48,912 nucleotides of DNA from a virus: positions 1 to 48,912 of the IMG/VR virus record IMGVR_UViG_3300042988_001631. One strand, written 5' to 3'. The position numbers and the translations under genes were made by a program. Below, one piece after another: positions 7,497 through 46,900 of this stretch (positions are counted from its first letter, which is position 1; each line of letters starts with the position of its first letter). The notes under the pieces were generated by a model. It saw nothing but the letters and a program-made list of their open reading frames with translations. It was not told where the DNA came from and searched no databases.

Positions 7497-7904
7497 ATGA
7501 GAAAATTTATTTCTTATGGAGTAGGAGTGATGTTCCTCTTCTCCATTCTTTTTTCGCTTTTATCTTGTACTGATATTATGACTTATGATGGTCCAGTTGC
7601 CACAACACAAAATCAAGATTATCAAAGTCCTCCGCAAGAAAGTGAACATTTAGCAGATGGTGTTTATAGATGTCATGCTGGCTACGAATACGAAATTTGT
7701 ATGGAAACAGAGCCTGGTAATGGATTGTGTGATCTGTGTTATCGAACACAAGTGATGCAAGTCAATACTACTACTGATTCCACTAAATATATTACGTTTC
7801 ATTCTTTTGAATCTAAATCGGTTCGCCATATGGTTATCCTAGATCCTTGCTCCTATCGGCAGGTAAGAATGGGAACAGACAAATCTGTGGACCACGTAAT
7901 TTAG
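7497..7904 (+). CDS. Predicted lipoprotein, 135 aa
   Basis: The N-terminus (MRKFISYGVGVMFLFSILFSLLSC) is a lipoprotein signal with lipobox SLLSC, lipidated at Cys24. The next ~30 residues are Thr/Gln/Pro/Ser-rich, a flexible tether. The mature domain has several Cys, including YRCHAGYEYEICME and GLCDLCYRT, which may form disulfides in the envelope. It is preceded by an 80-nt A/T-rich leader ending aaaatttaaaaac. No family is recognised. Its TAG stop is immediately followed by the GTG start of the next gene. Confidence 0.75.
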   Translation: MRKFISYGVGVMFLFSILFSLLSCTDIMTYDGPVATTQNQDYQSPPQESEHLADGVYRCHAGYEYEICMETEPGNGLCDLCYRTQVMQVNTTTDSTKYITFHSFESKSVRHMVILDPCSYRQVRMGTDKSVDHVI

Positions 7905-11198: not shown

Positions 11199-12125
11199 AT
11201 GAGTCAAAAAATCATTGGCATATTAGCCACTCAGTCAAATAATGCGGAAGGCTATAAAGGCATAACGATTGGTATTGAAGAGCAATATGCAAAATTGTTT
11301 TCTCAATATGGAAAAGTAGTATGTATTATGCCAAACACATTACCCTCTGATTACGCTAAAATAGATCTTTTGGTCTTACAAGGAGGGGCTGATTTGGATA
11401 CATCTTTTACTAGTGATGGTAAAGATTTGGTTGTTGGTAATGGCCCATCAAATCCAATGTATAGTCAATTTTATAAACACTTTCTTAATAAATGGATTGA
11501 CGCTGGTGTTCCCATTTTTGGCATATGTTTAGGGGCTCAGGCTCTTAATGTTTGTCTTGGGGGAGGTTTAACGCCTGATGGTCCTAATCATTCTCTTGCT
11601 GGTTTGCATCCAATTGCGGTGTACAACGAACAATTGGGACTTTATACTGTTAATGATTCTAAATTCCTAAAGATCAAAAGACCATTTAGTACTGAGGTTA
11701 ATTCTAGACATCATCAATTCATAAGACCCTTTCAACTTGCAGAATGTTTAATTCCAATTGCGTTAGGGGTTATGGATGATAGTTATCTAAAAACTCAGGA
11801 TAATATAAATAATCTTTGGGAAGCATCATCTAGTCCTAGTAGTTCTCCAGGACTATTAAAACGTTTTTATGACAGAAAGTTTACAGACATTAACAAGAGA
11901 ATTAGCCACATCGAGGCGTTTATGCATTCATCTAAAAAGATTGCGGGAGTACAGTGGCATCCTGAAAGCATGTGGATTTCATTATCTTCTTTTACAAGAG
12001 GATGTGAGGTTTCTCATGTAATCATTAATTGGTTATTAGAAGATGATGACAATGGAGTAAAAGTAAAGGTCGTTACCAACGATCCACCAAAAACAAAAAA
12101 TATAGCTACAACATTACAGGTATGA
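11199..12125 (+). CDS. Peptidase C26 / class I glutamine amidotransferase-like hydrolase
   Basis: A 308-residue enzyme of the class I amidotransferase fold. The nucleophile elbow GICLGAQ places the catalytic Cys at residue 110. The His-Glu pair is GVQWHPE (His254, Glu256). A VNSRHHQ motif at 167-173 resembles that of gamma-glutamyl-GABA hydrolases (PuuD type, peptidase C26), and QGGADLD at 61-67 is the oxyanion-side strand. The family hydrolyses gamma-glutamyl amide bonds. A Ser/Pro-rich insertion (~210-218) is atypical. Its TGA overlaps the ATG of the amidoligase, a pairing known for this amidoligase family, so the hydrolase may trim, edit or recycle the ligated product. Substrate unknown. 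Confidence 0.85.
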   Translation: MSQKIIGILATQSNNAEGYKGITIGIEEQYAKLFSQYGKVVCIMPNTLPSDYAKIDLLVLQGGADLDTSFTSDGKDLVVGNGPSNPMYSQFYKHFLNKWIDAGVPIFGICLGAQALNVCLGGGLTPDGPNHSLAGLHPIAVYNEQLGLYTVNDSKFLKIKRPFSTEVNSRHHQFIRPFQLAECLIPIALGVMDDSYLKTQDNINNLWEASSSPSSSPGLLKRFYDRKFTDINKRISHIEAFMHSSKKIAGVQWHPESMWISLSSFTRGCEVSHVIINWLLEDDDNGVKVKVVTNDPPKTKNIATTLQV

Positions 12126-13075
12126 AAGAGAAGATTAAAAACCTTCTTTTCAAAGGATTAACCCTTGAACAAATATCTAATCAATTAAACATTTCTGCAA
12201 AAGCTTTAAAAGAAGAAGTAAATAAATCTGGGTATCCTAAACTAAAATACTCTGTAGGAGTAGAATTAGAGGGTTATTCAACTTTAGGGTATAGTTCTCT
12301 TTTAAATACTTTAAAGCAAAATGGAGTAGATATTTCATTTAGAAGTTGGCAAGAACAATCATTGACAGGAGTTAATAATTGGACTTTAACAACTGATGGT
12401 ACAGTTAAAGGGTTTAAAGGTCAAAATGGTGAAAAAGGGATGGAGATTGTATCTCCTCCCCTTAGATCCTTAGACTCCTTGGAAAAGATATTAGAGCTTA
12501 TTAGAGATGGTGAAGTAATGGACGGTAAACACAACATGTTTAAAACAAATAAAACTTGTGGATTACATATTCATTTTGGTACTGAGGGAATGGATAAAGA
12601 AATGCTTAAAAAAGTTTATACAACATACAGATTATTTGAACCATTTCTTGACTTGATTTTAGCTAGTAGTAGGCTTAATAATGTTAACTGTAATACAATT
12701 AAAAATCTTTCTTTTGATAATGCAATAAAGGTTGAAACCAAAAAGTATTGGTCAGTAAGAACCAAAATAGATCGTGTTACAATTGAGTTTAGAAAGCATC
12801 AATCTTCCACAAATTTCAATAAGATTCGTAATTGGATTTTGATATTACAACAATTAATTCAGTACGCTGAAAAAACTACCCTAATTTCCATATTGGAAAA
12901 AGAGCCTTCTTTTTCGTATTTTTACGAAATTATCTCAAATCCAAATTTGATAGCCTATTATAATGCTAGAAAATATTCTTTTGAGAAGAAGGGAAACTTT
13001 AACAAAGATAAATTCAATTCTATAGTTGAGGAAACTTGGCTTCAAGTAGTTGAAGATACTTCGTTAAAGAATTAA
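12122..13075 (+). CDS. Amidoligase (Amidoligase_2-like), 317 aa, with N-terminal HTH-like segment
   Basis: The core carries the glutamine-synthetase-fold amidoligase motifs in order: GVELEG (46-51), TDGTVKG (91-97), GMEIVSPPL (106-114), CGLHIHFG (146-153) and TIEFRKHQSSTN (220-231). These hold the acidic, His and Arg residues expected to bind metal-ATP and substrate carboxylate. Residues ~1-37 (LTLEQISNQLNISAKALKEEV) look like a helix-turn-helix, an unusual addition. The family forms amide bonds between a carboxylate and an amine using ATP. It is translationally coupled (ATGA) to the C26 hydrolase and followed by a wall-hydrolase-like gene. The family call is firm; the substrate is unknown. 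Confidence 0.88.
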   Translation: MKEKIKNLLFKGLTLEQISNQLNISAKALKEEVNKSGYPKLKYSVGVELEGYSTLGYSSLLNTLKQNGVDISFRSWQEQSLTGVNNWTLTTDGTVKGFKGQNGEKGMEIVSPPLRSLDSLEKILELIRDGEVMDGKHNMFKTNKTCGLHIHFGTEGMDKEMLKKVYTTYRLFEPFLDLILASSRLNNVNCNTIKNLSFDNAIKVETKKYWSVRTKIDRVTIEFRKHQSSTNFNKIRNWILILQQLIQYAEKTTLISILEKEPSFSYFYEIISNPNLIAYYNARKYSFEKKGNFNKDKFNSIVEETWLQVVEDTSLKN

Positions 13076-13094
13076 TAATTTTTAATAATCTTAT

Positions 13095-13697
13095 ATGAAA
13101 AATGTACTATGGTCAATTTTAATTTGTTTATTATCATTTTCTGCAGGTAAATACATTTACCAACCACAAATTAATTTTGTAAATGATTGTCCAGTAATGG
13201 TATTTAAACCTGATACCATTGTTATTCCGAAAGATACTATGTATGTAGCAGCTTCGGATTTATTTAAATCTCGTCAAGATTTAGAGTTATTTATTAAGTA
13301 TGTAAAAACTCAATCAGGAAACTTAGATGATGATAATTGGGCCGTTATGAAAGTTATGAAAAATCGTATGCTCCAAGAAGGCGTAACATTCTCTGAATAC
13401 TTTTATAATAGGAGAATTAATAATTCTCAAACAATATCACGTGTTCTCTCAGGACAGCGTGTTCCAGGTTTTACTTTTTCTTGGGATAATCCAATGGACG
13501 TAGAGCTTGTACAAAGAGCTTTAGATGTCTTCTTTGGATCTATTCCAGCACACATAGATGAGGCTATTACACACGATGTTCAAGCTTTTGAATCTCATCC
13601 TATCTCTTGGAATTTAAACAATCCTAGAGGTATATTTGATAGAAAAAATATTGCTTGGACTGGTAGACATGAGTTTTATAGACTTAAAAATATTTAA
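13095..13697 (+). CDS. Possible SleB-like cell wall hydrolase, membrane-anchored, 200 aa
   Basis: The N-terminal segment (residues ~3-18, NVLWSILICLLSFSAG) is an uncleaved anchor or signal peptide, so the rest should face the periplasm. The domain at ~57-200 resembles SleB/Hydrolase_2 lytic enzymes in pattern: a helix followed by WAVMKVMKNRM (compare the VAxVxxNR helix), a middle containing ALDVFFGSIP, and the terminal GRHEFYRL. The usual EAxxE catalytic region appears as TQSGNLDD, so the active site may be altered or the similarity superficial. A lysis or peptidoglycan-remodelling role fits the neighbouring amidoligase but is unproven. Confidence 0.45.
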   Translation: MKNVLWSILICLLSFSAGKYIYQPQINFVNDCPVMVFKPDTIVIPKDTMYVAASDLFKSRQDLELFIKYVKTQSGNLDDDNWAVMKVMKNRMLQEGVTFSEYFYNRRINNSQTISRVLSGQRVPGFTFSWDNPMDVELVQRALDVFFGSIPAHIDEAITHDVQAFESHPISWNLNNPRGIFDRKNIAWTGRHEFYRLKNI

Positions 13698-24133: not shown

Positions 24134-25169
24134 GATTAAACCAATATCGAAAGAATACAAAAGTATTAATGATAAGATGATAAATTCCAACAATGGGAAT
24201 TTTGATATCATTCAATTTAGAAACAATGTGTATTCTGGACATTCCAGAACGAGAAGAGAGGCTGGATGTAGTCAGGATAGTACTTATTCCTCTTCTAATA
24301 TTATAGCTGAGGACATTGCTTTCATGTTTATCCCAACTGACTTTTGGGGAAAGAAAAATGATAATCCAACAAAAGAAGAAGTAAGTAAAATTCAAGAAGA
24401 TTTAAAAGCTTGGATACAATTTGGAAAAACTATTGGAATTAGAACAGAGTTTTTAGGAGTATTTACTCCCACAAACTTCTATAAAGAAAAGAACTTAAAA
24501 AATCTTCCTTCATGGACTAAAAACATTACAGATTGTTTTGTTGTTAGTTGGGATACTAGAGATTTAGTCTCTCCTAAACATGGATTAGGAACACTTTCAT
24601 TTATTCGTTATTTTTATAGTCCTTTAAGTAATTCAATTTACATGAAGACTGTTGAATTGGCGAATAAGTATCCAAAATTGAGGCCTCTTGAGTTGTTTTG
24701 GGCAGGACACATGTTTGGTGCAGGTAAAGCATATGATCCATACTATGGATTTTATGTAGTTCCCAACATATTTAGACAAAATGATTGTGATAGCTTTGAA
24801 GAGGATGATGATGGAGAAGAAATATCTTATTCTAATGTTACAGAATTGTGTGGCATAAAATCTTATTCTAGCCTTCATAATGATTATGTTCAAGGTAAAA
24901 ATCTTAACGCAGTTTGGACACAAATTGTTAGTGTTCCTATAATCTCAAAAAAGATTACCAGAGAGGAATTTAACAAAATGTTCAGTGCTAATATTTCTGA
25001 TTTTATGTGGAAGAAAATGGTAGAGATAAAGAAAGATCACATTGAAGGAATACCATTGGATAATGATAATGTACTATATGGTGATCAAATAGTACTTTAC
25101 TTTAACAAAAAAGATAAGGAAGGAAAACTAGATGAGGTAATCAGAAGCATGAAATTTCTAGAAATCTAA
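24120..25169 (+). CDS. Unknown protein coupled to a COOH-NH2 ligase, 349 aa
   Basis: The ATG at 24120 overlaps the end of the helicase gene by 14 nt; an in-frame TTG just upstream is ignored. The product is soluble and mixed alpha/beta, with segments such as AEDIAFMFIPTDFWG, CFVVSWDTRDLVSPKHG, LELFWAGHMFGAG and AVWTQIVSVPII. An acidic patch (FEEDDDGEE) lies at about residues 220-229. No known motif is evident. Its TAA overlaps the ATG of the phiEco32-type ligase, so a joint function, for example as ligase substrate, partner or second enzyme, is the main clue to its role. Confidence 0.75.
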   Translation: MNQTKIKPISKEYKSINDKMINSNNGNFDIIQFRNNVYSGHSRTRREAGCSQDSTYSSSNIIAEDIAFMFIPTDFWGKKNDNPTKEEVSKIQEDLKAWIQFGKTIGIRTEFLGVFTPTNFYKEKNLKNLPSWTKNITDCFVVSWDTRDLVSPKHGLGTLSFIRYFYSPLSNSIYMKTVELANKYPKLRPLELFWAGHMFGAGKAYDPYYGFYVVPNIFRQNDCDSFEEDDDGEEISYSNVTELCGIKSYSSLHNDYVQGKNLNAVWTQIVSVPIISKKITREEFNKMFSANISDFMWKKMVEIKKDHIEGIPLDNDNVLYGDQIVLYFNKKDKEGKLDEVIRSMKFLEI

Positions 25170-25990
25170 TGGAAAAAAAAGATTTTAAAATCAACATTTT
25201 AAGCTTAGGGTCTGATCCTGAGTTCTTTATTACTCGTGATGGTATATTCTACCCATCTTGTGGAATTATTGGAGGAACAAAAGAGGTTCCAAAACCTTTA
25301 AAAGAATCAGGAATAGAAGGACTATCGATTCAAGAAGATAACGTTGCAGTAGAAATTACAACTGCACCTTGTACTAGCAAAGAAATGTTTGTAAATAATA
25401 TTACAAATAGTATAGAGTACTTGCCAAAAGCATTTCCAAAAGAGTATGAATTATCCTTGAGTAAAGCTGCCTCAGCTTACTTTGATCCTAAGTATCTTGA
25501 TACTGAACAAGCACGTACCTTTGGATGTGATCCTGATGTTGATGCTTACACAGGTAAATTAAATGAAATTAGTGATTCTGCGAAAACCACTAACTTCCGT
25601 ACTTGTGGAGGCCATGTTCATATTGGTATCGAGGGAGGTAAAGATATGCCTAAATTATTGATGAGAAAATTCATTAAATTACTGGACTTGTATCTTGGTG
25701 TCCCTTCCCTAGTACTAGATAAAGACGTAGAACGTAGAAAATTGTACGGCAAATCTGGTTCTTTCCGTTATAAGCCTTATGGCTGTGAGTATCGTGTATT
25801 ATCAAATTTCTGGGTATTCGAACCTAAATTAATTGCTTGGGTATGGGATTCTGTTCAAAGAGCTGCAGAACACTTTAATAGCAATGAACCTATTGATTTC
25901 CGCAAAGTAAAAATGGCTATTGATGGCCGTGATATGGAGATTGTGGAGATGTTGATTAAAGATTATAAATTAAATTTAGTAACTGTTTAA
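25169..25990 (+). CDS. phiEco32-type COOH-NH2 ligase (amidoligase type 2)
   Basis: The 273-residue protein carries the motifs of the phage COOH-NH2 ligase-type 2 family (glutamine-synthetase/GCS-like fold): GSDPEFF (14-20), GGTKEVPKPL (35-44), QEDNVAVEIT (55-64), RTCGGHVHIG (144-153), and a conserved basic/aromatic tract from ERRKLYG (188) to EYRVLSNFW (207-215). The acidic DPE, E58/E62 and HVH residues should hold Mg-ATP; the Arg-rich tract should bind the carboxylate. It forms an amide bond between a carboxylate and an amine. It is coupled to an unknown 349-aa protein upstream and followed by the Sak4-like ATPase. The enzyme class is firm; the substrates are unknown. Confidence 0.88.
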   Translation: MEKKDFKINILSLGSDPEFFITRDGIFYPSCGIIGGTKEVPKPLKESGIEGLSIQEDNVAVEITTAPCTSKEMFVNNITNSIEYLPKAFPKEYELSLSKAASAYFDPKYLDTEQARTFGCDPDVDAYTGKLNEISDSAKTTNFRTCGGHVHIGIEGGKDMPKLLMRKFIKLLDLYLGVPSLVLDKDVERRKLYGKSGSFRYKPYGCEYRVLSNFWVFEPKLIAWVWDSVQRAAEHFNSNEPIDFRKVKMAIDGRDMEIVEMLIKDYKLNLVTV

Positions 25991-26003
25991 AAATTTGTCT
26001 TAT

Positions 26004-26702
26004 ATGGCAGTAGGTATCTTAGTACTGGGTCCTTGTGGTTCAGGTAAAACTTTTTCAGCTGGAACTTTAAATCCAAAATCTACGGTTTACATCAACTCTG
26101 ACAAAAAGAGTATGCCGTTTAAAGGTTGGAGAGAGGTGTATAATGCTGAAAATAAAAATTACATTGTGTCTTCTAATGCTTTGGATATTGCAAAATATAT
26201 TCAAGTAATTAGTGATAAGGCACCACATGTTAAAGTAATCTTAATTGATACTATTTCTTCTATTATGAGTGATAAAGAGATGGCAGAGATTAAGAAAAAA
26301 GCTTATGATAAATGGATTGACTATGCTGCAGACATTTATGAGTTATTCAAATTAACTCAATCTGAAGTATTAAGAGAAGACTTGTACATAGTGTTCTTGG
26401 GTCATACAGAAGAGTGGAAGGATAATCATGTGGTAAAACATCGCATGAAAAGTGGAGGAGCAAAATTAACCAATTTAAATGTAGAAGGTAAACTAACATA
26501 TACTTTATACACTGAAATTGAGTTTAATGAAGGGAAACCTGAGTATTATTTCATTACTCAAAGTGATGGAACTACGACAGCAAGGTCTCCTTTTGGATGT
26601 TTTGAGAGAAAAATTCCTAATGATCTTGGTTATGTAATTAAGAGAATTGATGAGTTTGAACACTCTAAAGAACCAGATGAAATTTTTAAAAACAATAATT
26701 AA
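26004..26702 (+). CDS. Sak4-like phage RecA-fold ATPase, 232 aa
   Basis: The start is placed at ATG 26004; an in-frame TTG lies 9 nt upstream. Walker A is GPCGSGKT (9-16) and Walker B VILIDTISS (Asp82). VFLGHTEEW and the closing YYFITQSDGTTTARSP...NDLGYVIKRIDEF pattern match the phage nucleotide-binding protein family (AAA_24), which includes Sak4-type single-strand annealing ATPases. It probably promotes DNA annealing or recombination with the SSB encoded nearby. It sits in the replication block between the COOH-NH2 ligase and a 289-aa unknown, overlapping the latter's start in TAATG. Confidence 0.8.
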   Translation: MAVGILVLGPCGSGKTFSAGTLNPKSTVYINSDKKSMPFKGWREVYNAENKNYIVSSNALDIAKYIQVISDKAPHVKVILIDTISSIMSDKEMAEIKKKAYDKWIDYAADIYELFKLTQSEVLREDLYIVFLGHTEEWKDNHVVKHRMKSGGAKLTNLNVEGKLTYTLYTEIEFNEGKPEYYFITQSDGTTTARSPFGCFERKIPNDLGYVIKRIDEFEHSKEPDEIFKNNN

Positions 26703-29186: not shown

Positions 29187-30102
29187 AGTAAAAGAGTTGC
29201 TTTGGGATAGAGTTTATGGTAAGTTATTACTAAGAAATTGGTTTGACTTCTTTTACAATTATCTTTCCTCTAAGGAGATGTATAAGATATTTGAAGCATT
29301 AAAACTTTATCCTAATGTTACTCCAGAATACAATAATATATTTGCACCATTTGATTTATTTGGGCCTCCGCATCTTAAGATGGTAATACTGACTGACATG
29401 CCAGACATAGATCAATCAGACGCAAATAATGGCTTAGGAATGAGTTATAGAAGAGGACTAGCTTTACCTACTGAAGTAAATCATTTTATAAGTCATATAA
29501 GATACTGTGAATTTCACGGAGTATGTTCAGATTTGTATAATAAAAAATACAGGTATCTTACTAGATTATTAGACGAAGCAAGAAATTTAAAAAGCAGTGA
29601 AGAAATAGAATTAGATTCATATTCTGCTGCTGAATATTTCAAGACTCTCCAAGAGATTGACTCAGAGAGAGAAAAATTAGATATTGAGTGGTATAGTCCA
29701 AATTCTTCATGGCAATATCCTCTTGAACATTTAGCTTCTCAAGGTGTATTACTTATGAATGTTATACCAACATTATCTACTGGTAGACGAGATATGATAC
29801 AGGCACACAGAAATACTTGGAAAGATTTTACTGAAATGGTTATTCATAATATTTCAGATAAATTAGATAATTTAATATTTTTATCTTTTCAAGAAAGGCC
29901 TAATGAAATAATTAAAAATCTGGTTAACGATGAAAAGCATTTAGTCATTACTTACCCAGATCCAGACGAACTTACATCAAGTAAAAAATTTTTTCTAACA
30001 TCTATAATTAATGAACAAATTACTGCTACAAAAGGAGTAGAAAAAGTAATTGATTTTAGATTAATCTTTGAAGAAAATGCAAAAACTATTGAACTTTTCT
30101 GA
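29164..30102 (+). CDS. Uracil-DNA glycosylase-fold protein lacking catalytic motifs, 312 aa
   Basis: The start is ATG 29164, overlapping the primase gene by 23 nt. Several blocks align with UNG-type uracil-DNA glycosylases: FAPF, MVILTDMPDI (UNG VILGQDPYH), GLGMSYRRG (UNG GLAFSV), LASQGVLLMN (UNG WARQGVLLLN), then HRNTWKDFTEMVI, and TYPDPDELTSSKKFF where UNG has HPSPLSAHRGFF. The catalytic Asp and His of UNG are not conserved (Met79 and Tyr264 at the aligned positions). A poxvirus-like precedent is a UDG-fold processivity factor. A ~60-residue charged helical insertion lies at ~125-185. Probably a replication accessory, not an active glycosylase. Confidence 0.72.
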   Translation: MNKQAENKVKELLWDRVYGKLLLRNWFDFFYNYLSSKEMYKIFEALKLYPNVTPEYNNIFAPFDLFGPPHLKMVILTDMPDIDQSDANNGLGMSYRRGLALPTEVNHFISHIRYCEFHGVCSDLYNKKYRYLTRLLDEARNLKSSEEIELDSYSAAEYFKTLQEIDSEREKLDIEWYSPNSSWQYPLEHLASQGVLLMNVIPTLSTGRRDMIQAHRNTWKDFTEMVIHNISDKLDNLIFLSFQERPNEIIKNLVNDEKHLVITYPDPDELTSSKKFFLTSIINEQITATKGVEKVIDFRLIFEENAKTIELF

Positions 30103-30658
30103 TCTTACAAAGGATCAAAAACAAGAATTGGAGAGAGTAGGAATATTGAGAATGAAAAGTGGAGAAAGCTTTTTAACTAATTATTTCTTAGTGTATGGAA
30201 CATTAAGACTTGGAATGGGTAATTGGGCATGGTGTTTCAATAAAAGAACAAAACATATCGCTACATTAGAACTTCCTGGATTTCTAAAAAGTCGTGGAAT
30301 TTCTTGTGAATTTACAGGAGATACAAGTCACGTTACTGTATTTGATTTATTTCAAGTAACAGATGAATTTGATAGAATTAATGCAGAGACAGATGCTCTT
30401 GAAGGAGTAAAATATGATGCATATAGAGCTTGTGCAGTTAGAATTAATCTAGAAGATGGGCCAATCATTGCTAAATTCTATGAAGCACCTTGGTCAAGTG
30501 CTGAACAAAAAGCAGCAAAAAATCCTAAGGGAGATTATGTAGGTAATGTTTACAAAACATACTCAAGTGATTTGAAAGAAAGACTAAAACAAGAGGCTCC
30601 AAAAGCGTATGAGTATTATTTTAAAGAAGAGGTTGAACAAGAAAAAATAACTGAATAA
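30077..30658 (+). CDS. Gamma-glutamylcyclotransferase (GGCT/AIG2)-like enzyme, 193 aa
   Basis: The ATG at 30077 (overlapping the UDG-like gene by 26 nt) is preferred over an in-frame TTG 9 nt upstream. The protein has the GGCT hallmark VYGTLRLGMGN (39-49), the substrate-binding loop, and ETDALEGVKYDAY (104-116), where Glu109 aligns with the family's catalytic Glu. The family releases 5-oxoproline from gamma-glutamyl amines. Known amidoligase neighbourhoods often contain such a cyclotransferase. It is coupled through TAATG to the ATP-grasp gene. An N-terminal extension of ~35 residues precedes the domain. The family call is good; the substrate is unknown. Confidence 0.8.
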   Translation: MQKLLNFSDLTKDQKQELERVGILRMKSGESFLTNYFLVYGTLRLGMGNWAWCFNKRTKHIATLELPGFLKSRGISCEFTGDTSHVTVFDLFQVTDEFDRINAETDALEGVKYDAYRACAVRINLEDGPIIAKFYEAPWSSAEQKAAKNPKGDYVGNVYKTYSSDLKERLKQEAPKAYEYYFKEEVEQEKITE

Positions 30659-31623
30659 TGAGTACTGAATTAAACGAACAATTTTCTCCTCACGTAATCA
30701 GCAAGAACCCATCAGCAGATAAGTTCCGAATTCAAAAAGATAAAGAGAAGCCAGAAGAAAGATTTCCTATAGGAAAATTTCCATATAAAACTCTAATCAA
30801 TTTAGGTAGTAGAACAGAAAACTGCTATGAAAAAGTAGCCTTAGTTCGTAAAGATGGTGGGGTAATCTTAAATCACCCTGATGTAATTAAAAATGCATCA
30901 AATAAAGTAAGATGTAAACAGTTCTTAGTTGATGCTGGTTTGCCTACACCGAAGTACCAAATGTTTGCAGAATTGAAATTAAGCGCTGCAGGAGTTCAAA
31001 ACTTCAGACTGGCCTTTCCTTGTGTTGCAAAACTTATTTATGGTAGTGGTGGAAAAGGAATGACAGTAATCAACGATATTAAGGAATTGGCAACTTTTAT
31101 TTCTTCTAAAAAATCTGAAGAATTAAATACTTATTTCATTGAAGAAGTATTTCAACCAGATATGAGCAAATCTTACGAGTATCGTGTGTCAGTGTCTCCT
31201 CTGCTTTTGATGAAAAGAGTTGATTATCCTCCTCAAAGTAATGGTGTCTCAGAAATAAATTACAAAGGAGAAATTATAGTACTAAGAAAATTAATGAAAC
31301 AAGAGGCTGTAGATGCAGGTAGTTTTGGAAGAAATATTGCCTTGGGAAATAGCTACTTTACTGCAAATTTCGAAAGAACATTTTCACGTAAAGGAAAATC
31401 TTGTTCTGTTGACAAAGCTGTTAGTTTAGCCTTAGATGCTTGTATGGCTTGTAATCTTGATTTTGGTGCTGTAGATATGTTGTGGGATTCTGAATCTGGA
31501 TCTTGGACAATTCTAGAAATAAATACTGCCCCATCAATGGGAGATGAAAATGCTGTTTTATCTTTCAGTAGATGGAAAAAAGCATTTAGACAGATGATTT
31601 TAGAAAAGAGAAAAGAAATTTAA
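30658..31623 (+). CDS. ATP-grasp carboxylate-amine ligase, 321 aa
   Basis: ATP-grasp motifs are present: the glycine-rich loop region VAKLIYGSGGKGM (123-135), the adenine-contact strand YFIEEVFQP (159-167), and the metal-binding AVDMLWD (271-277) and EINTAPSMGDEN (287-298). The order matches RimK/D-Ala-D-Ala-ligase-type enzymes that activate a carboxylate as acyl phosphate and join it to an amine. The N-terminal ~75 residues would be the substrate-side domain. It is coupled to the GGCT-like gene upstream and lies 9 nt before the class II amidotransferase. The class call is strong; acceptor and donor are unknown. Confidence 0.88.
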   Translation: MSTELNEQFSPHVISKNPSADKFRIQKDKEKPEERFPIGKFPYKTLINLGSRTENCYEKVALVRKDGGVILNHPDVIKNASNKVRCKQFLVDAGLPTPKYQMFAELKLSAAGVQNFRLAFPCVAKLIYGSGGKGMTVINDIKELATFISSKKSEELNTYFIEEVFQPDMSKSYEYRVSVSPLLLMKRVDYPPQSNGVSEINYKGEIIVLRKLMKQEAVDAGSFGRNIALGNSYFTANFERTFSRKGKSCSVDKAVSLALDACMACNLDFGAVDMLWDSESGSWTILEINTAPSMGDENAVLSFSRWKKAFRQMILEKRKEI

Positions 31624-31632
31624 TAATAAACT

Positions 31633-33552
31633 ATGTGCGGAATCGCAGGTTTTATAGGTAAGAAAGGAGAAATTTTTAATGAAATAATTCTTAATTATCT
31701 ACTATTAGCACAAGACTCCAGAGGAAAAGATAACTTTGGAGTCTTTTATACCACACGAGAAAATAATCAGAGACTACTATATGTACATAGAGGGGCTAAA
31801 AATGTAGATGGTAAAGGAACTGATATATCTTCTTTTCATAAACATTATGAAAAAGAAGGAAAATTTTGGGCAGGCAAAAAACCAAAATTTTATAATCCAT
31901 GTATAGTAATTGGTCACTCAAGATCTTCTTCTCGTGGAGGTGTTACATTATCTGATGCCCACCCAATTATAGCAAAAAATAGTGAAGAAAATCCTACTCG
32001 AACTGTGATTGGAGTTCATAACGGAACAATTACTAACGAAACAGAAATAGAAAGACATTTTGGATTGTCTCTCGACTATGGGTCATCAGACTCAGTACTT
32101 ATCTTCAATATTTTTGCACAAGGAGAAAAGGAAACTTTAGAATTCCTTTCTATGTACAGGGGTAGCGCAGCTTTGGTATGGCACATAAAAGAAGAACCAA
32201 ACAAGGTTTATGTATGGGCAGGAAAAGAAACTTACTCAAAAGTTAATACTCCTGAAAGACCTTTACACTATGTACAAACTAAGGCAGGAATATACATTTC
32301 TTCTGAACATAAACCTTTAGACGAGGCATTTTTAACTCTTCCTAACAGAAAGAAATATCTAGAAAGTAATACGATTGATTCGTATCATTTTGCTATGGAT
32401 GCTATTACTGTAATAGAAGATGGAGAAATAGTAGAAGTTATCAAAGTAGATAGAAATCCTACTAAAAGTACTAACTCATTTTCTTTACCAGCTCCAAGAT
32501 ACTTGGGTCATGAAGAAGATTCAGACTTTTATAATAGATTATCAAAAAAGAACAGAAGCGGATGCGTAGGCAGCTCAGCAAGCGAAATAAAAAAAAGTGA
32601 ATTAGAAACAATTAAAACTCTTTCCGCTGGAGTTCTAAATTCTGATGGTTTAAGTCAACAAGAGTTGTTTAGAAGTATTCAAGAGGGTAGGCTAGTTTTT
32701 AGTAAAGGACTATATTATTATAATGGTAACATTGCACATACTAAAGTAAAACTTAGAGAAAATGTCAGTGTAGAAAAATCTACTTATAATGATGTAGAAA
32801 TAGTGGATAGAATAACTACTTTTGACACAACTGGAAGAGGTATTTTTATATCAGAAGATAAGCATGCTTATTATGATGTAGAAGATATGACTCCTGCAGT
32901 AAATGTTGCAACAAAAGAATTATACTTCTATCGCGGAATACTTATTAATAACATAAGATCTTTAAAAGATTTACACATCTTCGAAATAAAAAACGAAGGT
33001 TCAGTATCTGGTACAATACTTCGTAGTTCTACTAATTTTCCTATTTGGTCAGGATTATTTAACAGAAAAGAAGATAAAAAAGATTGCCTTACTTTTATAA
33101 AACCAACTACTCTTTTAAACCATTCTGATCCAATAGATGGATTAGTTATTTGGCCTTATGTAAACAGAGGATATATCTTTAAAGAGTCAATGATAGTTGA
33201 GGTATTAACTAAAGAAAGAACAGAACATTTTAAAGAAACCTATGCTACTTTTGATAATATAAAATATTGTCTAAAATGTAAAGGAACTGTTGTAAGTGAT
33301 TGTCCTATGTGTGATGACAAATGCAGTACTAATGCTTTCCAAAAAGTTCTTGATAACATTGACGAGATAAATAGATATTTAGAAGAAGAGCAAGAAGATT
33401 TTAAGGATAAAGAATATATTGTAGTTTGTGATGATTGTGGATCAGTAACAACTCAAAATCATTTAGAGAGATGTGATACATGTTCTTCTATTAACATAGA
33501 GGAATTAGAAGATGAGGAAACATCTAAAATAAAAGCTTTCTTCATTAAGTAA
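31633..33552 (+). CDS. Class II glutamine amidotransferase with C-terminal zinc ribbons, 639 aa
   Basis: The N-terminus is MCGIAGFIG: Cys2 becomes the N-terminal nucleophile of a GATase II (Ntn) domain after Met removal. Supporting motifs are VIGHSRSSSRGG (92-103) and VIGVHNGTITN (125-135). This domain (~1-250) releases ammonia from glutamine. Residues ~250-540 match no synthetase I recognise. The end holds Cys-rich zinc-ribbon-like units: CLKCKG and CPMCDDKC at ~547-566, and CDDCGS with CDTCSS at ~598-618. It is coupled by TAATG to the third amidoligase. It probably supplies ammonia or makes an amide for the pathway. Confidence 0.88.
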   Translation: MCGIAGFIGKKGEIFNEIILNYLLLAQDSRGKDNFGVFYTTRENNQRLLYVHRGAKNVDGKGTDISSFHKHYEKEGKFWAGKKPKFYNPCIVIGHSRSSSRGGVTLSDAHPIIAKNSEENPTRTVIGVHNGTITNETEIERHFGLSLDYGSSDSVLIFNIFAQGEKETLEFLSMYRGSAALVWHIKEEPNKVYVWAGKETYSKVNTPERPLHYVQTKAGIYISSEHKPLDEAFLTLPNRKKYLESNTIDSYHFAMDAITVIEDGEIVEVIKVDRNPTKSTNSFSLPAPRYLGHEEDSDFYNRLSKKNRSGCVGSSASEIKKSELETIKTLSAGVLNSDGLSQQELFRSIQEGRLVFSKGLYYYNGNIAHTKVKLRENVSVEKSTYNDVEIVDRITTFDTTGRGIFISEDKHAYYDVEDMTPAVNVATKELYFYRGILINNIRSLKDLHIFEIKNEGSVSGTILRSSTNFPIWSGLFNRKEDKKDCLTFIKPTTLLNHSDPIDGLVIWPYVNRGYIFKESMIVEVLTKERTEHFKETYATFDNIKYCLKCKGTVVSDCPMCDDKCSTNAFQKVLDNIDEINRYLEEEQEDFKDKEYIVVCDDCGSVTTQNHLERCDTCSSINIEELEDEETSKIKAFFIK

Positions 33553-35117
33553 TGAGTGGAACCTATTTAAAAACAGACATAATTTACGGTAGGTTAGTTA
33601 TAACTAACTTACCTAAAGTTAAAATCAAAGAAAAGAATGCAGTAAAAGGTGCTATAGTTTATATAGAAGATCAACCTTTTATTATTGGAGAAGAAGTGCT
33701 CTTTTGTGATGAAACACAAAAATATGAAAATTCTAAAAATGTTAGATACGGAATCATAAATTCTCAAGGAGAACGAGGTACTATGTTATTTAACAATTTT
33801 AAGACAGTTCAAGTCATTTCGGCTGTAAAAAAGAAAGAAGATGAAGAATTATTTATTATGAATGAAGATATTGCATATTCTTTAGGATATTTGCCGTCTA
33901 AATCAAGTAATTATTTCTATCATCCAACTAAAGAGCCTGCTGAATTTTTATCTAAGTTAGCTTCTATAAGAACTTTTGCAATCAACATTAGAACTACGCA
34001 TCATGCAGATGATGCCAATAAAGCTTTTGTAGATATACAAAAAATCTACGAAGAAACAAAATATAAGAGTACATTCAGGTCAAGAACCATTGCCAGATTA
34101 TTAGGTAACCTTACTTTTGGAGTTGAATTTGAAACTAGTCAAGGAACTTTACAAACAAGCTTTTTGGGTCCTGGTGGTATTGTTCCTGTTGTTGATGGCT
34201 CCCTAAGTAGTAGAGATCAGTACGAGTATGCTACAGTTATTCTAAAAGGTGCTAAAGGTTTAGAATCTTTGAAGAAAGTATGCAAAAGATTAATGAGTCA
34301 ATGTAGAGTTGACCATTCTTGTGCTATGCATGTACATATTGGATCTTTACCTAAAAGAAAAGAGTTTATCCTTGCCTTGTACCAATTATTTTATAGACTT
34401 CAGGATGAATTATTTAATCTTGTTCCTTTCTATAAACGTCATGAACAAGCTATTATGGGTAAACAAAAAGAATACTCAGAGAGATTAATTGACTTAGGAA
34501 TTGGTGATAATAGTTTGTATAAAGCTAAGAGTAAGGAAGAATATGAAAAAGAGCTTATGAGACATTATAATGAGATATTCTCGTTTATTACTTGTGGAGC
34601 AAAACCAGACAAAAAAAATAATCCAAAAATATATAAGCAAACTAAATACACTCCATGGAATAGACAGTGGGATTGTCCTACTCGTTACTATGCCATGAAT
34701 TTGGTTAATTATTTCTTTTCTAGTGGTACCGTTGAATTTAGACTACATGGTCCTACAGTTAACTTCCACAAAACTCTTATGTGGTTATTAATTTGTAATA
34801 CCATTGTACGTTATGCAGATGTGTATTCTAAGAAAATTTTGGAAGGAAAGGATAAAATCAAATTAACTGATGTAATATGCCAGTTATATGATAATTTTGG
34901 AGAAGATGCTCCAACTAAAGTGTTGGATATTTACAAAGAAGTAACTGATAGTATCATACGTTATATGAATATTATTAGAGATAAGAACAAAAATGATAAT
35001 GTAAAAGCTGTACATAGAGCTTTAAATGGTAGAACTTCTGTAAACTCTGAGCATGTAAACAATGCTATGGAAGAGTTTAAGAATGATTCTACTTCTTTTA
35101 CAGAAGAATTATACTAA
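33552..35117 (+). CDS. Amidoligase (Amidoligase_2-like) with long N-terminal extension, 521 aa
   Basis: The catalytic domain (~185-480) has FGVEFET (189-195), DGSLSS (215-220) with EYAT (225-228), the core HSCAMHVHIG (255-264) and VEFRLHGPTVN (394-404), the same order as in the 12122-13075 amidoligase. The first ~180 residues are an extra domain, beta-rich at first (RLVITNLPKVKIKEKNAV), not seen in the smaller paralogue. It is predicted to form amide bonds with ATP. The TAATG overlap with the GATase II gene argues that the two enzymes share a pathway. The substrate cannot be assigned. Confidence 0.85.
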   Translation: MSGTYLKTDIIYGRLVITNLPKVKIKEKNAVKGAIVYIEDQPFIIGEEVLFCDETQKYENSKNVRYGIINSQGERGTMLFNNFKTVQVISAVKKKEDEELFIMNEDIAYSLGYLPSKSSNYFYHPTKEPAEFLSKLASIRTFAINIRTTHHADDANKAFVDIQKIYEETKYKSTFRSRTIARLLGNLTFGVEFETSQGTLQTSFLGPGGIVPVVDGSLSSRDQYEYATVILKGAKGLESLKKVCKRLMSQCRVDHSCAMHVHIGSLPKRKEFILALYQLFYRLQDELFNLVPFYKRHEQAIMGKQKEYSERLIDLGIGDNSLYKAKSKEEYEKELMRHYNEIFSFITCGAKPDKKNNPKIYKQTKYTPWNRQWDCPTRYYAMNLVNYFFSSGTVEFRLHGPTVNFHKTLMWLLICNTIVRYADVYSKKILEGKDKIKLTDVICQLYDNFGEDAPTKVLDIYKEVTDSIIRYMNIIRDKNKNDNVKAVHRALNGRTSVNSEHVNNAMEEFKNDSTSFTEELY

Positions 35118-40761: not shown

Positions 40762-40893
40762 ATGCAAGAAGAACAAGAAAAAAAAGTAATCGATAGACTT
40801 TGTGATGCTAATAGTCCAACTTCATTTCACGAAATGATTAAAGACTTTTGGCCTAATACCTATGCAAAGTTTATGGAAATTCTAGGTAAATAG
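40762..40893 (+). CDS. Small hypothetical protein, 43 aa
   Basis: A 43-residue frame (ATG 40762, TAG 40891-40893) encodes a helical protein starting MQEEQEKKVIDRLCDANS. It is 5 nt after the previous stop and 7 nt before the bidirectional terminator, making it the last plus-strand gene of the long co-directional run. No family is recognised. Its short length makes it the least certain of the small genes. Confidence 0.5.
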   Translation: MQEEQEKKVIDRLCDANSPTSFHEMIKDFWPNTYAKFMEILGK

Positions 40894-40950: not shown

Positions 40951-43900
40951 TTACTCAGAATCTTCTAAGTCTAAATCATCTAACCATTTTTTTGTTTCAT
41001 AATAAGAAGATAATCCTCTTATACCTCTTTGAATTTCATTCCAACCTTTTAAATCTCCCTCAGTTGTCCAAGCATCGTCTGGTGCATTAAATGGTGAATA
41101 CCCTGTAGAGGCCCATAAAGACCACGCCATGTCATTACCAGCATCTAGTGTTTTATACAACCTAGTACCTGCTGCAGATGATGGGAAAGAAGTTATGTTC
41201 TTAACCATGTCTACTGGATTATAATTTTGAGAATATGTATCTAAAATATAAGCTCCCATACGTTTTAAAGAATTTTTTTCTTCTTCTTCTCCAAAGGCCC
41301 ACCCATATAATAACCAGAATGACATAAGAGAAGATAATACTGCTCCAGCCTCTAGTATATTCTTTTTCTGTTCTGGGGAAAGATTATCCCAAGCATAGGA
41401 CTCATTATTTAATAAATAACTTCCTAATCTAGTTCCCTTAACTAAGCTATTTAGTCTTAACCATTCTCCAATAAAACCAGCTAAAGTAATCCATCTACCC
41501 TCTGTTATTCGTTGTTGCCATTCAAGTACAGTTATATCATTTCCTTTTTCATCTTTAACTGTAACAATTTTACCATCATTACCTGGTACTGGTTTATACC
41601 TACCAAGTACATTTGAATAACTTAATGTTCCAAAGTTTGTTTTAAGTAATTGTGGTAAATGTTTTTTAAACTGAATAATAGCTTGTCCAATAGCATAGAA
41701 TTCAAAAGAAGTTCTTTCTCCTGGACGATACCCACCTTGAATTCTAGTATAAACATGTCTCATACTAGCTGCTTCTTTAGATGTTATTCCTCCAATCTTT
41801 TCAAGCTTATCTCCTACTTTAAGATATCCTCTAGTTGGTCCTATATAAGTTAATTCACTTTCTCCTGTAATAGGATTTACCTTCATCTCATACGCATCCC
41901 ACATAGATTTACCGTTCATTTCTTTTGTAGTAAACTTCATATTAAGCATTTGAGCTACCATTGTTACTTTAGAAATATATTCTTCAGGTAAAGTATGTAA
42001 CATATAAGCTACATCAGGAGATAGTAACTGAGTTTTTAACGTTTCTAAGTATCTTGAATTAGTAGCTAAATCATAAGCGTTAGAATCAAATCTGAACTCT
42101 TGAGATAGTCTCCATAACTTATTGTTATGATAATTACCTTTAACTTGTTCTCCAATAAATGAAGCAACAATACCAGAAGCTTTAATTAAATCTTTAGTAG
42201 TAAAATCTACTACACTAGCATTAGTACCTATAACTTTCTCTTTTAAACCCATTTTAATGAAGTCTCCCATCAAACCTTCCTTAATAGTAAACATACTAGC
42301 GATCGCAGCATTTTGGGCTGCTTTATGAGGTTTTACCCACATAAATACCGCACCTGCAGAAGATCTAGCTGCTTGTAATAATTTTAACGGGGAAATCTTC
42401 TTAACATATTTTCTATTTGGGTTTCTTTTATCTGTTACAGTAAAAGGAGATAATGTTGGGTTAGAAGTTAAATCAAATGGTTCTTCTCCTTTATGATATA
42501 GCTCCATAGAAATATGTTCATCTAAATACTTATTTATTCTACTAGCCTCTCCTTTATAAGAAGCCATTTGAATAGTGTATTGTAAACCTTTAGCTAAAGC
42601 ATGTACATCATCTAAATATTTTTTATGGTACATTGATCTCATGTACTTATCAAACATATTCTCAATATTACGAGAATATACTTTATTTGATCGAAGAGAC
42701 CTAGTACCTAAATACTTGATAGGGAGAGCTTCATCTCTATTTCCCCATTGTTCGTAGTCATATTCAGTAGAGAAAGTTAAATATTTATTTAATAAATTTC
42801 TAATATACTCCATTGGTCTTCCTTTAAACCTTTCTTTTAAGTCTTGATTTGTAGGAGCTACAACAGGAATAAAACCTTCATAATAATTAAATTTATCTCT
42901 TAGATCTTTATTAAGATTAAATAACTCTAAGTCAGAATAATTCTTAACTCCCATCTCAATACCACCAACCATATTAGGTTTATCTTTAACTGCAGTTCTA
43001 TTTAAGAATGCTGAGTCTCCTTTAAATGGTGATGCAAATCTTTCATTAACAAAATCTATAAACTCTTTTTGATTCTTTGTTAAAGCCTCATAAGCTTTTT
43101 TCTTTTCAGGATCTTTCTCATTTTTATGTAAGAATCTCTCCAAAGTTACACCATCTTCTGTAAATGTTGTATAGAATGGTTCATATAATTCATTAGTCAA
43201 CGGATCATATTTTTTAAGTGTTGCTTTACGTAAGAATCCTTTACCAGGCATTTTACTAGCTACGTAATCTTCTGATATTTTTTTAACTAATCTATTAAAC
43301 TTAGCCATATCTCTAGTAAACTCAGAATTAGCTTTATCTAATCCTTCATTTAATCTAGCTTGGTATAAGTTAACAATAGGATGATTAACATCTGCATTAA
43401 TACCAAACCATCTAGAACCATAAGAGATATCATCTGACCAGTTTTGAATATTATATCCTTCTTGTTTAGCAAATGCAACTAGTTCAAGGGTTAATTTCTT
43501 AATCTCTTGCATATCATCATGAGTTAATAATCTTTTATCCAATTTAGCTTGGATTTTCCATTTTAATTCATTTTGAGTTGCTATAATAACTTGTTCAGCT
43601 GTTTTATTCTCAGCTAACATTCTACCAGCTAAAGTAGGGTCTGTTGCATTATAATGTTTAGGATTAAATGCGTTAGGACTTTTCTCTAGTATTTGTTCAT
43701 ATATTCTAGGTTCTTCAGACTTATAGTATTGCTCAATCATACGTAAGAAATTAGCATGATTTGCTTTATTATAAGGATCATATGCTAAAGCCTCATACTT
43801 ATTAGGAATCCACATGATATCTAAATTTCTAAAAATTGCATCTGGATTTTCTACTTTCATCATGAATGCATAAAACATTACCTGCAATTGGTTCTTGGTT

Positions 43901-46900
43901 TTAGGATCAGCAAACATATGATTAAACTGATTACCGTATTTCATAAGAACATCATGTGTTTCTTTTTCAATACTTCTACCAGTCTTCCAATCTATGATAG
44001 AGTAAGATCCATCACTATGCTCTACTAACATATCCATAGTACCTGCGTATTTAAGTAGTGGACTACCTATAGTTACCTCAGAGAATATTTTATCTTTTTG
44101 ATCCTCTGGCACATTATCCTTATGTGAGTTTAATTGAAGTTTATCTAATAACTTATCATAAACTTGTTCAATCCATCCATAAGATGTTTCAGCATCTGGT
44201 ACAGGAGCATTCTCTAAAGCTTCCTCTAACTCATCTTCTAAATCTTCTTTAGATTTATTAGAGTATTTATTCCAAGATAATAACTCTAGCCACTTATGCA
44301 TTACTTTACCTTTAGCAATACCTACAGCATTTAAGTCATCTAAATATTGTATATATTCTTCTTTAGTAAGATCTTTTTTAATACCATCAATTGGAATAGC
44401 TGTTCCTTTAGGTACACCTTTAAATACTCCTTCAGCTTTTAATTGAGAACTAGTTAATCCCTTTTCCTTAGGAGTAGTACTAACAAACTTAGAAATAAAT
44501 CCAGTATAGTTATCAGTTACACGATTCCAAGCTTTGTTTGTAATAGAATAAATATAATGGTCTAATTGTTCTCCATTAGAGTCTGTAGCTACATTTATAT
44601 ACTTACTTTGTTCTAGTACATTCTTAGTTATTCCAGAAACTTCTGCAGGTTTAGAATTACCTATCTTATAGAATATCTCATTAGTATCTATAACTACAGA
44701 ACCTTTATTAATAGGATTATCTATTAAGTAGAATGAGTTATTTAATACCTGTGATAGTAAAGAATCATTTTCTACAACTCCTAGCAATCTTTTGAAGAAC
44801 TCTACAAATTTAGTTAATAAAGAATATTTCTTACCTGTATCAATTTTAAATGAATCTAATTCAGCCTGGAACTCAGGATTACTAAATGTTTCTGCAACAA
44901 ATTCATCAATATTTGTAAATCCATAGAATTTACCTGCACCAGCTTTAAACTCATCTTTATATTTTTTCTTCATAGCTTCTGAAGCTACTTTGAATAGTTT
45001 ATGTAAGTTAGCTTTAGCTCTTACTTGATCTCTTGATAATTTATTATCAGGAGTATGTAAATTAAACCAAGTTAAAGCATGAGTTAATTCATGTATTATA
45101 GTTGATTCAATTATTTCTGGTGAAACTCTTGTTCCATCTGGGTATTGCACAGCAATAGAAATTTCTTTAGGATAATTATTAACCCAATGTCCAATTACAT
45201 TTCCTTTATCAGTCTCTTTTACATTAATAGTTCTAACTGTTAATCCTTTTACAGCTGAAGAGAATTCTGGACTTAAGAATAAATTAGCCATTAATTTACC
45301 TGCAGTAGATCCATTAACTTGTATATCTTTTAATACATTCTCAAGAGATAAGAATTTATTTCTATCTGCAGTTGTAATAGAAGATTTAGTACCTTTATAA
45401 TTTAATTCTACCTTAGATACTTTTTTAACTAATTTATAATCTTCTCCTTTAGAGTCAATGTATTGTTCATAATCTTTATTTTCTAATGGAGTTATCTCGA
45501 ATTCCATTTCATTAATACCATACTCATTAACTTTAGGATCAGTTAATTTCTTAGTTACCATATAATACTTTCTATACATTCTTGCTCCATCATTTGTAGG
45601 ATATAGCATTATGATAGACCCAGTACCATGTTCGTCTTTTGTCTTAATATCATTATAGTAGTTATCAGAAATAGATACTTTAGTTGTATTGTCAGGATCA
45701 GCTACTGCTCTAGATAATATTGAACTATCAAAAGCTAATGCAGTAGAGTATTTCTCTGCTAACTCTTTTCTAAAGAATAATCCTATTCTTCTTTTTAAAG
45801 TACCTATCTTAGTATAGAATACAGGAAAGTTAGATTGCTCGTCAGATTCTACAGCTATTTTTATTTTCTTAAATACATTCTTACCAAATTTTAAGAAGTC
45901 ACCCATAGTGTCTTTACCTTTAAGATCAAATCTTAAATTATAATATATACCATAAGCTTTATCATATGCTGCACTTCTCCAAGTACCTTGAGCTACTTCA
46001 ACTCTTGTTGGTTTCTTACGAGTTTCTCCAACATTATTACCTCTTTCAATTACCTCTTGAACTTCAAATAATTCTTTATATACATCTAATTTAGTTAATG
46101 CTTCTTTTAATTCTGCATCTAACTCATCCATATAAGGTTTAACAATATCTGGAGGTAAAGAAGTAGAATAGTTTGTAGATCCAAATTGTAAACCAAAGTT
46201 TAAGATTGCATATCTTACAAAGTCTTGTTGAAATTCTGTATAACCAACATTAGGCGTATAACTATATGTAATATTACCTTTATCATCTATATTTACTCTA
46301 TTTAATTTTACAAAATCCTCTTGGAATAATAAGAAATCTTCTAACTTCAAATTATTACCTGCAGTAAATTGTGCGTACCTTGTATCAAATCTTCCTGGTC
46401 TAATAGCAATATTTTCTATAAATCCATTAGAAATGTTATGTGCTTTTAAAAATAATTTAACATCTTCTAACTTATCTAAGAATGCTTGTGACCAAGCTTC
46501 AGCTCCAGTAGTATAATCTTTTACTCCTGTAGCAGTTCTATATTCTTTAGTTAATCTTAAATTAATTTTTTCCATTAATGGAATACCAGAAGCTATAAAT
46601 TTAACAAAGTCACTTTTAACTGTTTCTATTGTTTCATTCTTAGTACCAATAGACATATTAGAAGTCTTAACTATTTCAGTAGCTAATTTAGTTAAAGCCT
46701 TATCGTGTTTAAGAAACATTGTTTCAATAGAATCTACCAAGTACTTAAATGCTTCATATGCTAATTTAATGTGTGGATTATTATTAAACAATGCAGGAAT
46801 ATCAAAAGAGAATGAATCTCTCATTTTTACTTCGTCTTCCTTAAAATCAAACATCTCTTCCCATTTTTCTTGGGTAGTAGACATGTCTGCTTTATTACTT

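Follow-up and report, generated by a model that had tools for sequence, protein, structure and literature searches.

Does a phage gene for a C26-type hydrolase, joined to one for an amidoligase, specify a pair of enzymes that break and make the same amide, what would that amide be attached to, and does the membrane-anchored protein encoded just downstream take part? These questions are raised by three consecutive open reading frames in a viral DNA of 48,912 nucleotides (IMG/VR record IMGVR_UViG_3300042988_001631), here called the window. The original prediction had read the three genes as a hydrolase-amidoligase pair of a kind known from bacteria, followed by a SleB-like wall hydrolase, the set possibly protecting or marking the wall of the infected cell. 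We favor, at a probability of roughly 60%, a reading in which the C26 enzyme and the amidoligase make and break an amide of the gamma-glutamyl type, as a pair within the scattered peptidoglycan-modification module of a crAss-like phage. The first description was correct but partial, and it concerned a kind of phage system that has already been described. What is new is that the phage is crAss-like, that the genes are scattered in three groups and that a C26 gene is paired with a ligase gene in an unusual way.

Organization of the Locus

The coordinates of the three genes, the 4-nt ATGA overlap between the first two (12122-12125), the 19-nt gap that separates the amidoligase gene from the third, and the N-terminal hydrophobic anchor of gene 3 were all as first described (Table 1). 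Close spacing is the rule in this genome. Among the 61 gene junctions of the window, 46 have a spacing of 20 nt or less, seven overlap by 1 nt and four by 4 nt; because 4-nt overlaps are ordinary here, the ATGA overlap was rejected as a sign of a special link between the C26 and amidoligase genes. Searches for RNA families and tRNAs found none. A promoter scan returned 42 hits, the level expected from shuffled sequence (49.8), and no operon boundary was therefore drawn. Terminator-like sites numbered 11, compared with 2.3 in shuffles, and most of them fell within coding regions or faced the minus strand.

Table 1. Amide-bond genes of the window and the gene adjoining the C26-amidoligase pair.
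Feature	Coordinates	Strand	Length, class or matches
C26/class-I GATase-fold enzyme, predicted gamma-glutamyl hydrolase (gene 1)	11199..12125	+	308 aa; 'second C26' clade
Amidoligase_2 number 1, COOH-NH2 ligase, stand-alone type (gene 2)	12122..13075	+	317 aa; PF12224, PHROG 2443, tree
Orphan protein with N-terminal hydrophobic anchor (gene 3)	13095..13697	+	200 aa; no family match
phiEco32-type COOH-NH2 ligase type 2	25169..25990	+	PF14395 2.2e-11
AIG2/GGCT-like gamma-glutamyl(amine)cyclotransferase	30068..30658	+	PF06094 6.3e-5, just above curated cut-off
RimK-like ATP-grasp ligase	30658..31623	+	PF08443 6.6e-9; TIGR00768 1.3e-18
Class-II glutamine amidotransferase, N-terminal MCGIAG	31633..33552	+	PF13522 4e-9; PHROG 4736 3.9e-16
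Amidoligase_2 number 2, module amidoligase of crAss-like clade	33552..35117	+	PF12224 5.2e-12; PHROG 2443 1.8e-16

The C26 Enzyme: Hydrolase or Ammonia Donor

Gene 1 matches Peptidase_C26 (PF07722) with an E-value of 3.7e-21 (76.3 bits against a curated cut-off of 20.5). Its Cys-His-Glu triad is intact: Cys110, in the GICxG motif, and His254 and Glu256, in QxHPE, are invariant in an alignment of 32 sequences that includes the window protein, as are Gln114 and the HHQ motif (H171-H172-Q173). No non-gamma-glutamyl active-site architecture was found, and the claim that a gamma-glutamyl-hydrolase-type enzyme adjoins an amidoligase holds, with both enzymes intact. The nearest solved relatives in a profile search of the PDB were Lin1909, SpuA and PuuD. 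An AlphaFold model, built on an alignment of related viral sequences, has a mean pLDDT of 70.1, with low confidence at residues 144-158, 191-228 and 286-308. Its best structural match is PuuD (VIA Z 20.7, 3.0 Å over 219 residues), followed by SpuA (20.3) and plant gamma-glutamyl peptidase (18.4), while ammonia-donating glutamine amidotransferases (GATases) score about 17-18 and below. When Foldseek matches were ranked by E-value, the GATase of GMP synthase came first, and the preference of the fold for hydrolases, judged on a model with weak loops, is thus moderate. Distant GATase-fold proteins were the sole matches in a library of viral structures.

The class-I GATase domain PF00117 also scores on gene 1 (9.5e-17). 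Together with the Foldseek ranking, the intact triad and the close coupling of the two genes, this score is what might be expected if the protein were a glutaminase supplying the amidoligase with ammonia; the product would then be a single primary amide, e.g., at residue two of the stem peptide of the wall. We regard this as unlikely, given that gamma-glutamyl hydrolases are the nearest relatives in sequence and the nearest matches in full-length structure, that the phage module described below already has a class-II GATase, and that class-II GATases are also what the ligase's nearest relatives in bacteria use. Gene 1 is instead predicted, from its model and relatives, to be a gamma-glutamyl hydrolase that cleaves a gamma-glutamyl amide.

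Phylogenetic analysis placed the window protein inside a clade of 12 members (support 100/94), termed here the second C26, whose genes co-exist with a module-type C26 gene in related phages of ~70-100 kb. The second C26 gene lies inside the module at five loci (L083, L090, L042, L048, and L064) and kilobases away from it at four (L043, L051, L055, and L070). Six module-bearing crAss-like contigs (L043, L051, L055, L070, L083, and L090) carry two different C26 genes, one of the module type and one of the window's clade. A module-type C26 gene was found neither in the window nor in the further 35 kb that the contig of a twin record, described below, adds to it.

The Amidoligase and Its Association with C26 Enzymes

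Gene 2 matches Amidoligase_2 (PF12224; 1.1e-19, 71.8 bits against a cut-off of 22) and PHROG 2443 (7.1e-23), and it retains D92, E108, H149, H151, E222, and R224, which occupy columns that are invariant across 12 divergent relatives. A second, weaker amidoligase match, at 34725, belongs to a true paralogue, the last gene of Table 1. The paralogue clusters with the module ligases of crAss-like phages (support 100/98). The ligase of gene 2 is on a long branch of the amidoligase tree, where its nearest neighbors are stand-alone phage amidoligases and its placement is unsure. By eye, neither the C26 protein nor the amidoligase has a signal peptide, which suggests that both are cytoplasmic.

The pairing of these families is indeed known from bacteria. 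PF12224 occurs in 23 of 398 Pseudomonadota genomes, and in 19 of the 23 a C26 gene is immediately downstream on the same strand, mostly overlapping the ligase gene; the context of these pairs varies and includes no third wall gene. The Pseudomonadota units differ from the window in that the ligase gene precedes the C26 gene, whereas in the window the C26 gene comes first and overlaps the ligase gene, an order seen in the window only among the viral loci examined. The window ligase is also nearer to a Bacteroidota/prophage lineage than to the ligase of the Pseudomonadota unit. A functional link between the Amidoligase_2 and C26 families, in both gene orders, is well supported, and the window's own pair looks to have been assembled independently. 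Two observations count against a make/break pair that belongs to the module. A distance of about 12-22 kb separates the pair from the rest of the module, and the relatives of its stand-alone-type ligase, in Bacteroidota and other genomes, have a small class-II GATase as the next gene in 20 of 80 cases and a C26 gene in none.

A Dispersed Phage Module

The original prediction caught part of the system only, since five more amide-bond genes are present elsewhere in the window (Table 1). A COOH-NH2 ligase, an amidoligase, an ATP-grasp ligase, a class-II GATase and a GGCT thus occur together in one phage, as in a module that has been described in phiEco32, LUZ24-like and RIO-1-like phages (PMC5498523, PMC3890496, PMC11945000). 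The same gene set is found clustered in the annotated Alcaligenes phage vB_Af_QDWS535 and in a Zobellviridae phage, and it occurs without C26 in the LUZ24-like phage UFV-P2 (PMC3890496). The COOH-NH2 ligase of the window is 35-42% identical to proteins of Zobellviridae, Alcaligenes and Leptolyngbya phages. An ORF for a Sak4-like ssDNA annealing ATPase is located directly behind its gene (25995-26702; PHROG 2872, 7.6e-48). Iyer 2009, as cited by others, and Hardies 2013 are also cited for the phage module.

The extent of the association was assessed by a scan of IMG/VR with an alignment of the COOH-NH2 ligase, which yielded 306 relatives; 80 were kept, and the counts that follow cover the 79 loci besides the twin. 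C26 is encoded at 66 of these loci, an amidoligase and a class-II GATase at 76 each, an ATP-grasp ligase at 72 and a GGCT at 21, nearly always within 5 kb and on the same strand. The sample contains a few near-duplicates and some incomplete contigs. The co-occurrence is not circular, because the COOH-NH2 ligase gene, and none of the genes counted, served to select the loci. With relatives of this ligase in 313 named phage records as well as the 306 in IMG/VR, the module is present in hundreds of phages. The window resembles these phages in gene content and differs from them in three respects: its genes are in three places (at 11-13, 25, and 30-35 kb), whereas most related loci are compact; the phage is crAss-like; and an additional amidoligase is coupled directly to a C26 gene of another clade. 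Variable positions of the module genes have been noted in the literature (PMC11945000).

The Protein Encoded by Gene 3

The third gene had been thought to encode a SleB-like wall hydrolase. Its product, with a single N-terminal hydrophobic segment, does share some features with the SleB-type PF07486 proteins of T5-like, Pakpunavirus and Vequintavirus phages, which are about 150-190 aa in length and have an N-terminal signal or anchor, and short motif fragments of the SleB type occur in the same order (AV..V..NR; a terminal GRHEFYR). These likenesses, together with gene adjacency, could suggest a three-gene wall set in which the enzymes add an amide to peptidoglycan and take it off again, with gene 3 supplying a degenerate SleB-type anchored binder or inactive hydrolase. 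The comparisons do not favor this idea. Gene 3 has no match in Pfam, PHROG, NCBIfam or the PDB sequences, and PF07486 (SleB/Hydrolase_2) in particular does not match it. Six phage SleB-type proteins were gathered with a consensus query, which was checked by its matches to the solved SleB structures 4F55 and 4FET, and were aligned into an HMM for scoring gene 3 and its shuffles; gene 3 scored no better than the shuffles. An hhalign comparison of gene 3 with the SleB profile gave a probability of 3.5%, and in the alignment, which is weak at that place, the YFEARGE stretch of the (Y/F)xEARGE motif is replaced by YVKTQSG so that the catalytic Glu is absent. A single-sequence AlphaFold prediction was uninformative (pLDDT 38.5).

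Homologues of gene 3 were absent from 60 module-bearing and comparison records, and elsewhere in IMG/VR the twin record alone has one. With no homologue at related loci, conservation gives no ground for tying gene 3 to genes 1 and 2. In addition, the enzymes have no signal peptide, whereas gene 3 is anchored. The SleB assignment was rejected as unproven; a degenerate fold of that type is conceivable, an active lytic enzyme is unlikely, and the three-gene wall set strikes us as improbable. Gene 3 encodes an orphan membrane-anchored protein, probably a bystander that would lie outside the amide system.

Predicted Chemistry and the Question of the Target

For the make/break pair, we infer the direction of the two reactions from analogy with PuuA/PuuD. 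The amidoligase, an ATP-dependent enzyme of the glutamine-synthetase/GCS-type fold, would condense an amine with a carboxylate, probably that at the gamma position of glutamate. The C26 enzyme would cleave a bond of this kind via a thioester on Cys110, in the manner of E. coli PuuD, which acts behind PuuA. In PuuA/PuuD and in the SpuA system, a GS-type ligase makes a gamma-glutamyl amide from which a C26 hydrolase removes the glutamate, and the fold of the window C26 protein is closest to these hydrolases. The window differs from PuuA/PuuD in that its ligase is an Amidoligase_2 protein rather than PuuA, and identity in the structural comparison is about 20-22%. What reactions the pair carries out and what it acts on are separate questions, and the probabilities that we attach to the answers overlap.

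The substrates of PuuD and SpuA, which match the C26 model best in structure, are gamma-glutamyl-GABA or gamma-glutamyl-polyamine. The pair might likewise act on small amines (polyamines or amino acids) and serve nitrogen or polyamine metabolism during infection rather than the wall, a reading that we hold to be somewhat less probable than even. The GGCT in the window is consistent with it, as are the Pseudomonadota pairs, which are solitary and without neighboring wall genes, and a similar gene set has been interpreted in terms of nitrogen metabolism in Phage-ZRK32 (PMC10945688). On the other hand, an ATP-grasp enzyme and several ligases exceed what amine recycling would need, and the published reading of the phage module is wall modification (PMC5498523).

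That published hypothesis proposes odd linkages in peptidoglycan side chains and the exclusion of superinfecting phages (PMC5498523, PMC10580990, PMC11945000). The suggestion that the genes modify or protect the wall survives to the extent that the pair belongs to such a module; as a property of the three-gene set, it does not. Wall-peptide precursors would be the likeliest substrate of the make/break pair, early in infection, and in phage PSA-HP1 expression of the module starts at once upon infection (PMC7082346). The COOH-NH2 ligase, ATP-grasp ligase, class-II amidotransferase, GGCT, second amidoligase and the pair may jointly rearrange linkages of peptides or amines in the cytoplasm of the infected cell. 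No reported substrate was found here for the phage module or for phage amidoligases. The wall as target of the pair or the module is plausible but unproven, at odds somewhat short of even. As a minimal two-enzyme unit, the direct C26-ligase pair offers a means of deciding between wall and small-amine targets.

The Phage and Its Host

A twin record, IMGVR_UViG_3300047552_001072, is identical to the window over 7263-48912 (41.6 kb) save for an extra A in the window at 40785. Being the same sequence, it is no independent evidence, although it extends the available genome. The capsid protein on this record matches PHROG 11589 (1.5e-69), and a tblastn search with it found 126 records, from Flavobacterium, Bacteroides and crAss phages. 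The crAss-like phages cr108 and cr111 have DNA polymerases to which that of this phage is about 31% identical, and a giant RNAP-like ORF matches cr4_1 and phi14:2 over short stretches. A related capsid is encoded in ten other module-bearing IMG/VR records, several of them 94-100 kb in length, and also in Leptolyngbya phage Lbo-JY46, and a giant ORF matching the RNAP-like protein was present in 9 of 15 records compared. By its major capsid protein and RNAP-like giant protein, the phage is classed as crAss-like. The host is probably a member of the Bacteroidota, judging from the kin of the capsid and the ligase.

The literature covered, which was partial, contained no publication joining the terms 'crAss-like' and 'amidoligase'. 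With its presence in crAss-like phages, the known range of the module now includes a very abundant phage group. A broader and rather doubtful proposal is that crAss-like phages in general carry a dispersed, duplicated module, in which the second C26 and an independently acquired amidoligase would form a second make/break circuit with another substrate. If so, this circuit would let the phage mark wall precursors or amines reversibly in a Bacteroidota host.

Several other features of these genomes were observed. The RNAP-like ORF of the window (40951-48798, minus strand; 2615 aa) is the 3' part of a much longer frame, which on the twin record stays open for >4000 aa upstream and includes the same start residues. 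Two ORFs upstream of the pair encode a membrane-anchored protein with a weak Band-7/SPFH match (2126-2983; E 0.076) and a predicted lipoprotein with an LLSC lipobox identified by eye (7497-7904). Leptolyngbya phage Lbo-JY46 (PP438436.1, L020) has the module, a capsid match of the crAss-like kind and a DNA polymerase similar to that of this phage; it would be notable for a cyanobacterium to have a phage related to crAss.
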